Source: Polytrichum commune
Taxonomy: Eukaryota > Streptophyta > Polytrichopsida > Polytrichales > Polytrichaceae
Length of the DNA: 64,000 nt
Reading direction: 5' to 3'
Assembly (NCBI GenBank): GCA_950295325.1
Contig: OX485804.1
Span: 64,014,533 to 64,078,532 of the forward strand
Shown: positions 19,562 through 26,403 of the stretch, piece after piece
Numbering within the stretch: the first letter of the stretch is position 1
How the letters are laid out: each line of letters opens with the position of its first letter
The notes under the pieces: model-generated
What the model was told of the DNA's origin: nothing
The model's database searches: none
The model's input: the letters and a program-made list of their open reading frames with translations, nothing else
Translations under genes and position numbers: made by a program

Positions 19562-20007
19562 TTAGGGCCAAGAAGCCAGGCCCGATTCAATAAATCTAGG
19601 ATAATCCAACGGATCTAGCATAATTTAGCATAAAGCCGGTCATATTTCCACATAATCCAACAGATTTGGTTCGCTGAAAAATATCATGTTTTATTAAAAC
19701 AAAAATTGAAATTTGACATTAGCCCAGAGGCCAAGAATAGGCCCTCCATTTTGGGTGCACCCAATTCAATGAGCTTGGGCCATGTTAGACCATGCATTTT
19801 TTTGTAATGTAGTGTTGCAATGTAGGCATCCATGTTGTACTTGGGACTTAGGACTTGGGAGCTTTGGAAATTGGTAAGTCCCAACTTCCATGCTATCAAT
19901 GGTTGAGATTACACATATTGATCTCAAGTGACTTGGGGCTTAGGACTTGGGATCCCATGTAAATTGGCCCTTATAAAGTGCGACTTGGAGACCAAAGATA
20001 CACGGGT

Positions 20008-20301
20008 CTTAATTGGTTACTTTTCTTTACTATCCCGCTTCTCCTAGGACATAATTTACATGATTAGTATGAGAGGGATAGCAAATCCTAACCGAGTTTG
20101 TAGTTGCTTGCCTCGTAATTTCTAGGGCTCATATGAATATCGTATTCATTATCAAAGTGAAGATTCTTGTGCTCGTTAATTAGTCATATAGGTCCCCTTC
20201 CAAATAATAATAATAATGAATTATGTTGACTATTGAGATTAGAATGTTATCATATTTTGAGCATACAGTCCAATTTCTTTTACACATTTGTTCTTTTGGT
20301 A
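20008..20301 (+). repeat. Dispersed repeat R1, copy B, left half
   Basis: This copy matches R1 copy A and the copy at 27.1 kb up to 20301, then stops abruptly at the start of the 5.4-kb hAT element. The repeat resumes at 25698. The two halves join in register around one copy of TTTTGGTA. Confidence 0.7.
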
Positions 20302-20883
20302 CAATGTTCAGGGAGAACCGGCGGCTCTTTACAAATGAACCGATTGGTTTGGACAAAAAACAGGATATGGAAGAGTGCAGTCGGATGGGCATCCGATCCA
20401 CCATGGGAGGAAACCGGATATTGACGGGTAGTCATTTTGAATTCCCGGATAATTCATGGGTTCAATGTGTAAGTCCCCGGATAATAACCGTCCCCCCGAG
20501 GGTATCGGCAGATACCAGCCGATCACCGGGGGTATGTGCCAGATCCCGGCCATGTATGGGGAGGGTCATGAGGGAGATAGGGGTCCCTTCCCCCCGCCCT
20601 TTCTGAACTCATTTTCCACTATTCCGAGTCTCGTCCTCCTCTCCTTGGCCCTTCTCCTCCCCTGAGGCACCGTTGTGGCCCTCCCCCATCTCCCTCCACT
20701 CCTTCAACATTGTTGCGGCCCTCCCCCATCTCGCACTCCTCTCCTTCAACATCGTTGGGGGCCTCCCCCACTGCCCTGTCCTCATTCAACATTTGTTGCC
20801 CTCGCATCATTGTCCAACTTCAGTCGCACTCCGACTCCCACACTCCGATCCTGCCCCCTACGGCGAACATGTTTGCTTTTGAG

Positions 20884-21650
20884 TTGCTTGTTGGTCTAGG
20901 GGTTATGATGTATTGGTGGGTTGATAGATTGAGTTCCTTGTTGGTTCAGGTTGATTGAGTTCCTTTATGGTGTAGGGGGTTAGGATGTATTGATTTAGGT
21001 TGATAGAGTTTCTTGTTGGTCTAGGGGTTAGGATGTATTGGTGGGTTGATAGATTGAGTTTCTTGCCGGGTTTAGGTTGATTGAGTTGTTTGTTGACCTA
21101 GGGGTTAGGATATATTGGTGGGTTGATTGATTGAGTTTCTTGTTGGTTTAGGTTGATTGAGTTGTTTGTTGGTCTAGGGGTTAGGATGTATTGTTGGGTT
21201 GATTGAATGAGTTGCTTGTTGGTTTAGGTTGTATTGTTAGGTTGATTGATAGTGTTTCTTGTTGGTCTAGGGGTTAGGACATATTGTTAGGTTTAGATTG
21301 ATAGTGTTTCTTGTTGGTTTAGGTTGATAGAATTTATTGCTAGTTTAGGTTCATATAGTTTCTTGATGGTCTAGGGTTTAGAGTTTCTAGCTGGTTTAGG
21401 TTGATGGAGTTTCTTGCTAGTTTAGGTTGATAGTGTTTCTTGTTGATTTAGGTTCATAGAGTTTTTTGTTGGTTTAGGTTCATAGAGTTTCTTGTTGGTC
21501 TAGGGTTTAGAGTTTCTTACAGGTTTAGGTTTATAGAGTTTCTTGTTGGTTTAGGTTCATAAAGTTTTTTTTGTTGGTCTAGGGTTCAGAGTTTCTTGTT
21601 GGTTTAGGTTGATAGAGTTTCTTGATGGTCTAGAGTTTCTTGCTTTGTGA
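20884..21650. repeat. Degenerate minisatellite inside the hAT element
   Basis: Roughly 25 imperfect units built from TTTCTTGTTGGTTTAGGTTG and ATAGAG, with length variants that insert a GGGGTTAGGATGTATTGGTG block. The basic unit is about 26 bp and the compound unit about 60-70 bp. It starts about 580 bp inside the left end of the transposon. Confidence 0.85.
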
Positions 21651-24045
21651 ATACTTGTTGATTTGGTTGTTTTGTGATTGTGTTGTTATTTTCAGATTTA
21701 ATGTTCGTATTGGTTGGGTGTGCAGGAGCACGATATTGCATCAATATATGGACACATTGAAATTGGGTTTTATTTGTGATTATCTTTAACTTGGCCATTG
21801 GTAGATTAGTTGTAGTTGTTTTTTCTTCTTGGTTGTGTTTCTATTATGTTTTCTTTGTGATTGTATTCTAAGATATTTGTGCACTCTAGGAATTTTATTT
21901 TCACATGGTGAAAACATAAAAATCCGTGCACACTATATTGAAAAACAACTCATAGAGTGATAACTCAACATTTATTCATACATCATCATCATCTGAAGAT
22001 TGTACCTCTCGTCCGGGTTTGACTCCATTGGAAATTGTTGTGAATCAGTGGAATGATGCATGGTATAGTAAGTTTGATTGGATTGAAATTTGATTCTATA
22101 ACGGGTAGGGTTTTTTTGCAAAATTTGTAGATAAAAATGAGGTAGATCAACCTTCATCATTGTGGCAGCATTAACATTTGAATATCAATATTTCAAGACC
22201 ATGGAAAGAATGTAAAGCATAGACGTTTGCCTCGGACAATGTAGAAAGGCGAACGAACAATGAAAAAAATATTGTAGAGGCGAATCGAGCATGGGATAAA
22301 ATCATACATTCTTTGTTCCAAACAACGTATTATGTACGGAAGAAAGTCATTCATTTTTATAAGTCCTCTGGTTTGTGTTTTTTGCTTGTAAAGATTAAAG
22401 CTAATATATCGGAGAAATTTTATCATGATGAGGAAAATGTGGTGAGATTTTATTTTGCATCTCATTAGTGGTTCAAAAAAATTGTTAGATAGGGTCCGAG
22501 ACTCTAGGTTTTTTAGTATTATGATTTATGACTCTACAGATATAATTGTAATAGGTTATTTTATTGTCTTTACTAGTTTTGTAAATAAAGGTCTTAATTA
22601 TTGAAGAAAAATAAAATTATGCATACATAACATTTAAAACATTAACAAGAAGCATTAAGAAATTAAGACCAAATTTTGACAAATATATGGAATTTGGCTC
22701 CGATGAAGCATCGATGATGATCGGTGATGTAAAGATTTAATTTGATTTTTCTATCGAATTAACATAGTATTAATAGTAAATAGAATATAAATAGTAAATA
22801 TTATATCGGTTGGATAAGTTGGGAGTTAGAAATTAGCTTAATAAGTAATCCTAATAGAACAAGCGTCAACAGATTATTATAGAATTATTTTATGATTAAC
22901 TTAATTAAAAATAATAATTGAGTGGTTGGTGAGGCTATGGGTTTAGGATATTCCAAATCCAAAATTATTATGCAACATAATGATTAATTGAGTGAAATAA
23001 AACGATATTGATTCGTAAGGATATCTCTTTTATTTAACCGATTTGCTTCGATGAGAGAATATACAATTTGACAAGTGTCTTTTGACATTATCATATCAAA
23101 ATATGATGAAGTATTTTGGACGAAAAGAATCAACAGTGATTAAGATGATCCAATATGAAGGAGAACGTGGCGAGGGGAAATACCACGGAAGTGTCCAACT
23201 CCACCACGTGAAACAATCATATTTAATTGGCATTGAAGTCGCTTCAACATCACCATTTTTTCATAATGAAGTTATTTCTCGGTTTCGGGCCTTTAGAAAC
23301 CTAAATTCCTCAAAGTATAGTCATTTGTTTTCTCCAAATGACTATCATTTTCTATCATTTTTATATTTTTAGGTAGGTCTCAAAGTTATCTCTTTATTCA
23401 TACTATTATTGTTTAATTCTAAAATATTCACTAAAAGTTATAAACATTTCCATGTGGCAACTCATATAAACCTCATTTCTTCATATTTCATTTCAAATAA
23501 TTAGAAGTTGTAAAATATTATATTAGTGTTCGGTCCCTTTTGTATTAAATTCTAATAGTTTAACTATATTTTAAGGTCTAGATTACCGATTCCAAGGTAA
23601 CCAAGCTTAGGTTGGGCTAATTGAATGATTAGGAGGCTAACTATAACATTTTCACTCACAAGACTTTCGAACCTTAGAAAATATTATTTGTGAAATAAGG
23701 ATAAGCACGATTCAATCCTTTGGTATGGAAACCAAGGGGGTGCTTACTTTATCTTTGAAGCAAACAAAATCGAATTGCTCTGTGTTTGAAAGAATATGTA
23801 TTTTTTTTAATCTTCGTCCATTATGTGACATATGAGACAAATTTAGTGGCTATGGATGCAACAATAGTTGGACCTTGCAAAAACATATATAGATAAATAA
23901 ATATGTTATTAAATTTAGTAATAATATATTTTAGAAAATCATGTAAGAGAAAAAATGCATGATTTTTATTACAAGAATAATTTGTTTATTGTACAAAATA
24001 TTTGAAAAATATCACAAAATTAAATATTTGTCACAGTAGCAAACT
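21651..24045. other. Interior of the hAT element, coding remnants uncertain
   Basis: AT-rich sequence with short frames. A plus-strand stretch near 22287-22380 (reading AWDKIIHSLFQTTYYV before breaking up) may be the N-terminal part of the same transposase, but this is weak. The frame 23082-23372 is not recognised. Confidence 0.35.
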
Positions 24046-24986
24046 TTGATAACCTTTTGTGATTCTTTAAAGAACATTCCGACTTATTTTAGAAACAATC
24101 ATGATGTTATGAAAGATGGTGTTGGGTTTAATATATTTTTAAAAAATTACCTTCAAGTACATGTATTTACTTCATTTTTTATTGTTATCTTACATATTTT
24201 ATCCATGTTATCACATTTATTTCAAAATAAATTTATGGACATAACTATAATAGGTTTGGTGGTAAAGACCGATATTGTGCAAATATGTATGCTCTTCATT
24301 AATGAGTCTACGAATTGGAAGAATGAGACCTTTATTGTGCAAATCGGACATCACATTTTACCGGAATTTGGTCTTGGAAGAAGATATTTAGGGAGGCTAT
24401 CGAACGAAATTAAGGGAGGTAAATTTTATGATATTGAAATGATACGGAATTGAACAAAACAAGATCTTATGGATGCAGTGGTTTTTCAAGAGCATTTTGT
24501 CTTAGCGGTATCCAATGCATTAGAATCTAGATTTGAGGACAACCATATCAAAACAGTATTTAAAGTGTTAGATCCGACTAATATGTCGTCTAAACAAGTT
24601 GGCATAACTAATTCGGGGGTGGTTGATTTATAATTGTTATATGACCAATATAGAGTTGAGCATGAAATTGAAGGAAGAAAGATCCTTCCATTAATAAGTT
24701 ATAAGCAACTATCGATTGGTTGAATCAAAATTTCAAATATTTTTTGTCAATAATCACTTGGAATCACACCTTAAAAATAAATTATGAGAATTTCTTAGTT
24801 TTAGCCAAGGTAGCTAAAATACAATATATTAGCACATTGAGTTGTGAGAAAGCATTTTCAGTCCAAAATTATATAATTTTTAAAAATATATATATATATG
24901 TTAACAAAGAATTTGGAAAGTATTTTGCGGGTTGTTTTAAAAAATGCCAATTGAAGATTGTCATGAAATCATTCATGAAATCATAG
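24046..24986 (+). pseudogene. hAT transposase pseudogene (ZNF862-like type)
   Basis: The first frame (24046-24453) holds a stretch resembling the middle of ZNF862/C17orf113-like hAT transposases, ending in LGRRYLGRLSNEIKGGKFYD. The same frame continues past a stop with SNALESRFEDNHIKTVFKVL and DPTNMSSKQVG, typical of this group, then meets further stops at about 24630 and 24719. A frameshift leads to 24720-24986, where ISTLSCEKAFSVQNY matches the hAT C-terminal signature. At least three in-frame stops and one shift make it non-functional. It lies near the right end of the transposon, on the plus strand. Confidence 0.8.
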
Positions 24987-25697
24987 GAATATGAAAAACA
25001 ACAAGAAATTTAGGTATTTATTCTCTTACCCAGAACGGTATCCATGTGGAGTTGTTGGTTCCGAGCAAGAAGATAATAATTTGTTGTGATTTGTGCATGA
25101 AATGTAAATTATTGTGTTGGTGATTATTTGTACTAACTTAAACCCTTCTTGTCCTCAATGGTTTAGGGTCATCTAAGTGTGTAAGAGGATCATGAATGTG
25201 TGTTTTTTTGTTTTATATTAGAACATGTGAAGTCATTCATATATTAAAGAAGTTTATTGTTGTGAGTTTGTGTTCTATTGTATGACATGTGTATAAGAAT
25301 ATGTGTGGAATATGAGTTGTTGATCTTTGTAGTCATAGAGTATTTGAAAACATTGGTGGTTTGAGGGGTTGTAAATCCTTAGCCCCCAACTGGTGGGGGA
25401 TACTTGAACCAGGTCCAATTCCTGCTAAGGATAAATTAATTATTTTGGTAAGGGAATATAATTTAGTTGAGAAATATATAAAAATCGGCCAAGATATTAT
25501 TTAAACGGATTTTTTACCGGCCATCTTTTTACATCCGGATTTCAACCAAGGAAAAATGCCAAGTGGGGGAAATGAACCGGATGAACTTGATGGATCCAAC
25601 CCAAACCAACAAATAATATGTAATAACCGGTTGGGGCCCATTTTAATCAATTATTAGAGAGTTCGTGTGAAAAATCTCCTCGAACATTGTTTTGGTA

Positions 25698-25830
25698 TCA
25701 ATTCTTGGGGCCACACATAACCACATTCCACTCAACTATAGCCCAACTACAGGTGTCCGATTAAGATAAATAACACAATTAGGTATGTCTACTTTGGAGT
25801 TGACATACAAAAGAAAGTTGTGAATGTTGA
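25698..25830 (+). repeat. Dispersed repeat R1, copy B, right half
   Basis: R1 resumes here directly after the hAT element and its target duplication, with 'tcttggggccacaca', 'ccactcaactata' and 'tgtccgattaagata', in the same order as in the uninterrupted copy at 27.4 kb. Confidence 0.7.
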
Positions 25831-26403
25831 TGTTAAGACTATATCTATATGGCTATAATTAAAAAAAACACGTTAGTAAAACTAAAAATTGTATTTAGTG
25901 TCATAAGGTATTTTATGTCATCATGGCAACTTTTCTAATGGCATTTCTTAGAAATAAATTAACAAGTATTGTCATGGAAGATTGAAATGTGGATGAAATC
26001 CTTGCCATTTATTTAAACAAAGTTTGGCACATTATGCGTCTTGATAGTTTTGTGATGACATATTGTCATGGATGACTGAAACTTGAATGAAAAATCACTT
26101 AGTAAGTGACAATAATTGCAACATTGTAAATCTTTAATGTCCAATTGGTTTTTTGTGCAAGGAATGACAAACAAGGTTAGGTTTACATTTAGACTTGGTG
26201 ATACTACATGGGCAATTTACATTCGTAGTGAGCAAGACAAATAGCATTGGTGACACTAAATACAATATTTAGTGTAGTTATCATCATAAACAAGTTTAGA
26301 CAAATCAAAAGTGTGATTTTAATTATGTTGGTCAACAAAAAGAATATACTAAAGTGTTAGAGATGAGCTTGAGATGAGCATGTGAAGAGTGAAATAGGAG
26401 TTA

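Follow-up and report, generated by a model that had tools for sequence, protein, structure and literature searches.

Near the right end of a decayed hAT transposon of Polytrichum commune lies a stretch of 59 bases that can be folded like a transfer RNA (tRNA) stripped of its anticodon arm. The transposon occupies part of a 64,000-nucleotide stretch of assembly GCA_950295325.1 (contig OX485804.1, positions 64,014,533 to 64,078,532 of the forward strand), called the window below and numbered from its first base. The element itself is an ordinary old hAT fossil with a noteworthy type of transposase; what appears to be new is the tRNA-like module. Judging from the way its sequence varies between families, the module is very probably a real, conserved structure with compensatory changes in its stems. 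What it does is a matter for more guarded statements: we tentatively propose, by analogy, that it serves as an RNA-processing signal of the t-element kind. The picture as a whole, that of an old and inactive hAT with a C17orf113-type finger, inserted in a host repeat (R1) and equipped with a module acting as a t-element, is one we consider quite possible, though short of probable.

A tRNA-like module without anticodon arm

The module was noticed as a short stretch common to the element and to loci of other transposon families bearing the PF25431 finger (seven loci compared). In the window, bases 25375-25382 (ATCCTTAG) pair with 25425-25432 (CTAAGGAT) in an acceptor stem of 8 bp; a D-like hairpin with GG in its loop, a T-arm of 4 bp with a 7-base loop, and an unpaired A at 25433 complete the structure, which folds at -23.2 kcal/mol (z -2.1). 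It lies beyond the transposase gene and stops 256 bp short of the right end of the element. A tRNA-like fold with acceptor stem and T-arm is what t-elements and mascRNA have, and single-sequence folds agree on it for most of seven modules. The Rfam tRNA model aligns along its positions 1-71, minus the anticodon part, with the modules of two loci of the clade, L031 (18.5 bits) and L037 (16.4 bits).

Three simpler identities were considered and rejected. A true tRNA gene is ruled out by the missing anticodon arm, by Rfam scores that stay below the 29-bit threshold, and by ARAGORN, which reports no tRNA in the window stretch or in 14 loci. Rfam likewise yields no tRNA, and one chance match, on the whole element. 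The module is not transposase coding sequence either: in L031, which belongs to a related family, it lies on the sense strand and starts 106 bp past the transposase stop. Finally, it is no chance hairpin, being the sole place in the window, on either strand, that a strict structural scan picked out, and the reversed pattern being without a hit in the genome.

The modules of L031, L032 and L037 also pass the strict scan. Genome-wide, at least 118 + 117 copies (235) fit the strict pattern, against 0 + 0 for the reversed control; as the pattern fixes part of both stems, its free positions alone are informative. A covariance model based on 11 modules matches the window and 25 of 28 loci of the clade with E below 1e-4, and L015 weakly (0.021). 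Ten of these 28 loci contributed to the model, so that their match is built in, and eight (L038-L045) had been fetched by the module pattern. Among the ten free of both biases (L002, L004, L007-L010, L012, L015, L016 and L032), eight match, seven of them below 1e-4. Seventeen other loci (eight R1 copies, four light-harvesting loci, two copies of a nested repeat and three of another PF25431 clade) give no match at E up to 1. Where loci had been fetched for the PF25431 finger alone, four of seven carry the module (L031, L032, L036, L037).

Exact 8-bp target-site duplications (TSDs) surround CAATG-like ends in L036 (family E), L039-L041 (family D) and L042 and L043 (family C), and by eye also in L044 (B2, a relative of family B). 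For L031, L032, L037, L038 and L045 the TSD script did not find the ends, and further 8-mers in its output for L031, L032, L036 and L037 seem fortuitous; family B (L031) is therefore assigned to the hATs by its domains. On contigs C1 and C2, a strict module lies 0-4 kb downstream of the finger, on the same strand, at 4 of 53 PF25431 places, with one more at 4.6 kb; random placement gave a mean of 0.066 and a maximum of 2 in 2000 draws. Conversely, 5 of the 82 strict modules on these contigs have a PF25431 place nearby. Both sets of places are lower bounds.

The families have diverged widely around the module. When the 3' regions of five of them (A to E) were compared, seven of ten pairs matched with E below 0.001, and in six the module, or part of it, was the sole match; for the sister pair C-E the match takes in the module, its neighborhood and the terminus. 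Six representatives, chosen by hand, have standard pairs at 102 of 106 stem positions; in the acceptor, Watson-Crick pairs account for 43 of 48, and in the inner D stem for 30 of 30. If stem strands are exchanged among these six, the pairing of the acceptor is equalled or surpassed in 4 of 720 permutations, counting the true one, and the same figure holds for the inner D stem. An alignment of 24 distinct rows has two-sided changes in 10 of 18 pairs, a count that none of 500 shuffles attained, and structures slid along it pair in 38-54% of cells versus 89.5% for the unslid one.

These figures bear directly on the view that the element is an ordinary old hAT whose module goes back to a single capture of a tRNA fragment by the ancestor of the clade and has since been passed on without function. 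A single capture would agree with a tree of eight transposases in which the five module carriers fall on one side of a 100/100 branch and the three others opposite; the many module copies in similar, non-autonomous elements, the only slightly raised conservation in family A and the lack of a module in L016 would fit as well. However, the transposases share just about 47-68% of residues and the 3' regions are mostly unalignable, and the module still matches in the seven pairs with paired changes in its stems. Since the families are so diverged in both respects, neutral drift should have erased a useless module, and we consider a functionless relic unlikely.

A possible signal for RNA processing

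By analogy with t-elements and mascRNA, definition of an RNA 3' end appears the likeliest single role of the module, though at odds well below even. RNase P and RNase Z cleave both mascRNA and the t-elements of plant mitochondria, which resemble tRNAs, according to the portion of PMC11658184 used here. By the same logic, the module carried by the window's family and by four more families from its transposase clade might act as a t-element in the sense transcript of the transposon. RNase P, RNase Z or both would recognize the acceptor stem and T-arm and cut there; the cut would fix the 3' end of the transposon RNA, or put a stop to read-through between element and host. It is tempting to speculate that a whole clade of plant hATs keeps an anticodon-less tRNA mimic as a processing signal that recruits the tRNA-maturation enzymes of the host, in non-autonomous derivatives as well as in complete elements, although we would not go beyond speculation on this point.

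One could also picture the module working as DNA, as a subterminal hairpin or site recognized by the transposase or by host factors, comparable to the subterminal motifs of other hATs. Its distance of 256 bp from the right end and its retention in non-autonomous copies would suit such a role. So would the motifs AACCGG and CCGGAT, which cluster in the two 300-bp ends of the element (5 and 6, where their counts over the window predict about 0.07 and 0.13), as subterminal motifs are expected to do in hATs. Yet a T-loop, a GG in the D-like loop and an unpaired A would seem to suit a tRNA better than a plain palindrome, and the structural scan finds no counterpart at the left end; a role as DNA strikes us as rather unlikely.

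A further reading, quite improbable in our opinion, sees an A- and a B-box in the module and takes it for an internal promoter of RNA polymerase III or a TFIIIC site, whose effect would be to drive a small RNA or to insulate the element. The sequence GGTTCAANTCC fits the B-box consensus, and three of eight modules, the window's included, have four T in a row within the next 60 bp. No such run follows within that distance in the other five, however, and the lack of an anticodon arm leaves the two boxes unusually close.

To return to the t-element-like signal, a number of observations weigh against it or against the structure on which it depends. The ARAGORN and Rfam results that dispose of a tRNA gene count here too: tRNA, with its subthreshold score, is nonetheless the best Rfam match in L031, but in L037 it is narrowly outscored by two unrelated families (17.9 and 17.3 bits). 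The z-scores of seven further modules are modest, from -0.56 (family E) to -2.39, with three of the seven at -2.0 or below; the best fold lacks the T-arm in L005 and part of the acceptor stem in L044. L036 and L012 fail the strict scan. The covariance model finds no module in L002 or in L016, and L016 keeps both end regions in part. Pairs A-E and B-E have no significant match in their 3' regions, and pair D-E reaches only 0.005, in the module. The 24-row alignment had been adjusted to the structure, and among its rows are weak ones and a spurious one from the minus strand of L012; in it, a structure slid by +1 comes near the true covariation score (0.163 versus 0.176). In a smaller alignment made with MAFFT, covariation is weaker, with four pairs, a level that 18 of 500 shuffles reached, and sliding the structure by one column equals the score (0.153 versus 0.152). 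Conservation of the family A module is barely above that of its surroundings (0.90 versus 0.86), the acceptor stem standing at 0.97 (13 rows). Finally, among the eight loci fetched at pattern hits, L038 alone has a transposase frame of at least 150 amino acids, which implies that many copies of the module are non-autonomous. A role in transposase mRNA does not by itself explain such numbers; hitch-hiking near the end of the element would.

The element, its host repeat and its transposase

The element is a cut-and-paste hAT transposon that inserted into R1 with duplication of 8 bp (Table 1). A preliminary description had defined its boundaries to the base, and these boundaries stand: 5,388 bp are enclosed by exact copies of TTTTGGTA, an 8-mer found at four places on the + strand of the window. 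The short inverted ends noted there do match, but the 8 bp assigned to them were too few; they extend over at least 15 bp, 13 of which are identical between CAATGTTCAGGGAGA and the reverse-complemented CAATGTTCGAGGAGA. Transposons of the Ac or Buster groups of hATs prefer targets of the form nTnnnnAn or nnnTAnnn; TTTTGGTA matches neither pattern in full, in a comparison that takes in few TSDs.

Table 1. Features of the hAT element and its surroundings in the window
Feature	Position	Strand	Basis
Left part of host repeat R1	19995..20301	+	genome matches, empty-site alignment
Left target-site duplication TTTTGGTA	20294..20301		sequence, TSD comparison
hAT element, 5,388 bp, broken copy	20302..25689	+	recurring ends, TSDs, transposase remains
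Left terminal inverted repeat CAATGTTCAGGGAGA	20302..20316	+	sequence, genome matches, TSD comparison
Tandem array in 5' part of element, units of about 26 bp (other periods too)	20879..21638	+	
Transposase gene remains	21902..25080	+	similarity to relatives' proteins
Nested insertion of another repeat family, unclassified, 1,035 bp	22725..23759	+	comparison with copies
Remnant of hATC dimerisation region, weak (E 0.11, 12.8 bits)	24741..24869	+	domain search; over cut-off in relative L031
tRNA-like module without anticodon arm	25375..25433	+	fold, structural scan, covariance model
Right terminal inverted repeat, CAATGTTCGAGGAGA on - strand	25675..25689	-	sequence, TSD comparison
Right target-site duplication TTTTGGTA	25690..25697		sequence, TSD comparison
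Right part of host repeat R1, directly after duplication (right limit approximate)	25698..25800	+	empty-site alignment

That R1 is interrupted at the element and resumes at 25698, as had been suggested, is borne out by the empty site. When the flanks were joined and one TTTTGGTA kept, the rebuilt sequence aligned through the joint with all eight genomic R1 copies fetched (drawn from 40 non-self rows), and also across the joint at three places within the window. About 190 bp past the element, at 25881-26100, starts a different and very abundant repeat (2,204 candidates at first look, 40 scored).

Other copies were sought in 408 Mb of the genome (64 contigs, with nearly all of the sequence in seven contigs of 42-78 Mb) by means of the left 407 and right 338 bases as queries, match counts being lower bounds. 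Among the relatives recovered are copies that share both ends with the window copy, the lack of which would have counted against the preliminary description. At least 41 non-self rows match the left query, 26 of the 41 starting at query base 9 or 10, that is, at base 1 or 2 of the element. On the right, with at least 40 rows, 6 of 40 stop exactly at the last base of the element (query base 330); the remainder stop within a few bases of it, or earlier. In 16 fetched relatives the TSDs agree at 8 of 8 positions, as in the window, in five cases, at 7 of 8 in four and at 6 or fewer in seven; pairing with another copy's TSD gave 8 of 8 in none and 7 of 8 in 5 of 272 combinations. One end is missing in five of the seven poor cases (L002, L010, L011, L015, L016); L004 and L013 have no good duplication although both ends are near. 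Since the best full-length end matches are just 87% identical, the window copy looks old. L016 is a derivative of the window's family of about 0.8 kb, which matches both end regions in part and lacks the tRNA-like module.

The preliminary description recognized the element itself; the nested insertion, like the module, had escaped it. Both sides of the insertion are kept, without the insert, in 11 of 16 copies of the element, and the region is deleted in four others. Two further copies of the nested family (L025, L026) measure about 1.48 kb, the one in the window being some 460 bp shorter inside. These copies have TGTGA-like ends, and a plausible short duplication was seen by eye in one copy only. 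A relative of the insert lies in L008, a locus of the same hAT family, in opposite orientation and about 100 bp further along the element. Without the insertion the element would measure 4,353 bp, within the 2.5-5 kb given for hATs in the part of PMC3942097 used here.

The transposase gene is broken, as had been recognized: proteins of relatives align with it in three changing frames, through many stops and across the nested insertion. The earlier designation "ZNF862-like" holds at the level of domains only, zf-C17orf113 (PF25431), DUF4371 and hATC all being found in relatives. Human C17orf113, from which the Pfam finger takes its name, is one that we take to be ZNF862-like. In L012, a member of the window's family, a frame of 527 residues contains zf-C17orf113 (32.9 bits; cut-off, 29.5) followed by DUF4371 (34.1; cut-off, 32.1), and a second frame holds hATC (PF05699) just under its cut-off (20.3 versus 21.4). 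A frame of 755 residues without stop in L031 has both zf-C17orf113 (51.6) and hATC (25.8) over the cut-offs and DUF4371 under (28.7); an hATC-bearing transposase is thus seen through this related family. L031 and L032 represent one hAT family; their identity is 96% over 4 kb, and each has upstream repeats of about 250 bp. Three loci (L033, L034, L035) form another, distantly related clade of zf-C17orf113 transposases with open frames of 745-781 residues, and no tRNA-like module was found in them; L033 and L034 share 96% of their protein sequence, which suggests recent activity.

Transposases of the zf-C17orf113 type are abundant in this genome. The finger has at least 140 matches (150 scored of 176 candidates), at least 138 of them over the cut-off, three of these only together with neighbors in frame; no match was obtained in 14 control genomes, a cyanobacterium among these. 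Viral contigs gave 4 pattern stretches and prokaryotic contigs 23, none of which was confirmed as a relative of the transposase, and a sequence search of the PDB with two transposases had no hit at E up to 1. Literature searches yielded nothing on ZNF862 hATs in plants beyond work on intron gain, and nothing on C17orf113; the main text of a moss paper (PMC11704416) does not contain the term "hAT". The finger of this single transposase type, with its 138 or more matches over cut-off, is to be set against Physcomitrella, for which the portion of a plant hAT survey used here reports no hATs (PMC6027215).

Unrelated to the transposon, 14 light-harvesting genes of equal domain score and with one open frame each are clustered on contig C5 at 1.75-1.85 Mb (L027-L030 and neighbors); weaker light-harvesting matches cluster elsewhere in the genome. 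Among the 60 of 648 matches listed for one light-harvesting protein of this genome, the top score goes to a multi-domain chain, 9vfj_2, counted over two stretches; the chains 8htu_U and 7xqp_a come next (459 and 457 bits), and the one after them has 436. As 7XQP is from Physcomitrium patens (PMC12589708) and 8HTU bears the label PpPSI-L (PMC10005731), the protein is in keeping with a moss, although a single protein counts for little.

Relation to known systems

A tRNA mimic conserved in DNA transposons, if real, would tie transposon expression to the enzymes of tRNA processing. Listings from searches of open-licence papers showed no report of a tRNA-like module in a hAT element, and the closest parallels to the element and to the module come from different quarters. 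With the animal genes of the ZNF862/C17orf113 type, which are presumably hAT-derived, the relatives of the window element have the PF25431 finger in common; here, in contrast, it occurs in mobile families with terminal inverted repeats and TSDs, in a plant genome. BuT2, a DUF4371 hAT of the Tip group, is alike in its 8-bp TSD, its short terminal inverted repeats and a transposase with DUF4371 and hATC, as far as the part of PMC3942097 used here describes it, whereas the families considered here add an N-terminal zf-C17orf113 finger and a tRNA-like module near the right end.

For the module, the comparison is with the two systems that inspire the proposal, as presented in the same portion of PMC11658184. 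Like a plant mitochondrial t-element, it is a tRNA-like structure beside a protein gene and not a tRNA gene; unlike t-elements, it resides in nuclear transposons, lacks the anticodon arm and has a processing that is putative. The resemblance to the mascRNA of MALAT1 is that of a tRNA-like structure inside a longer transcript unit, which is presumed in the present case. MascRNA is not part of a transposon, whereas the module is, and its cleavage there is a putative one.

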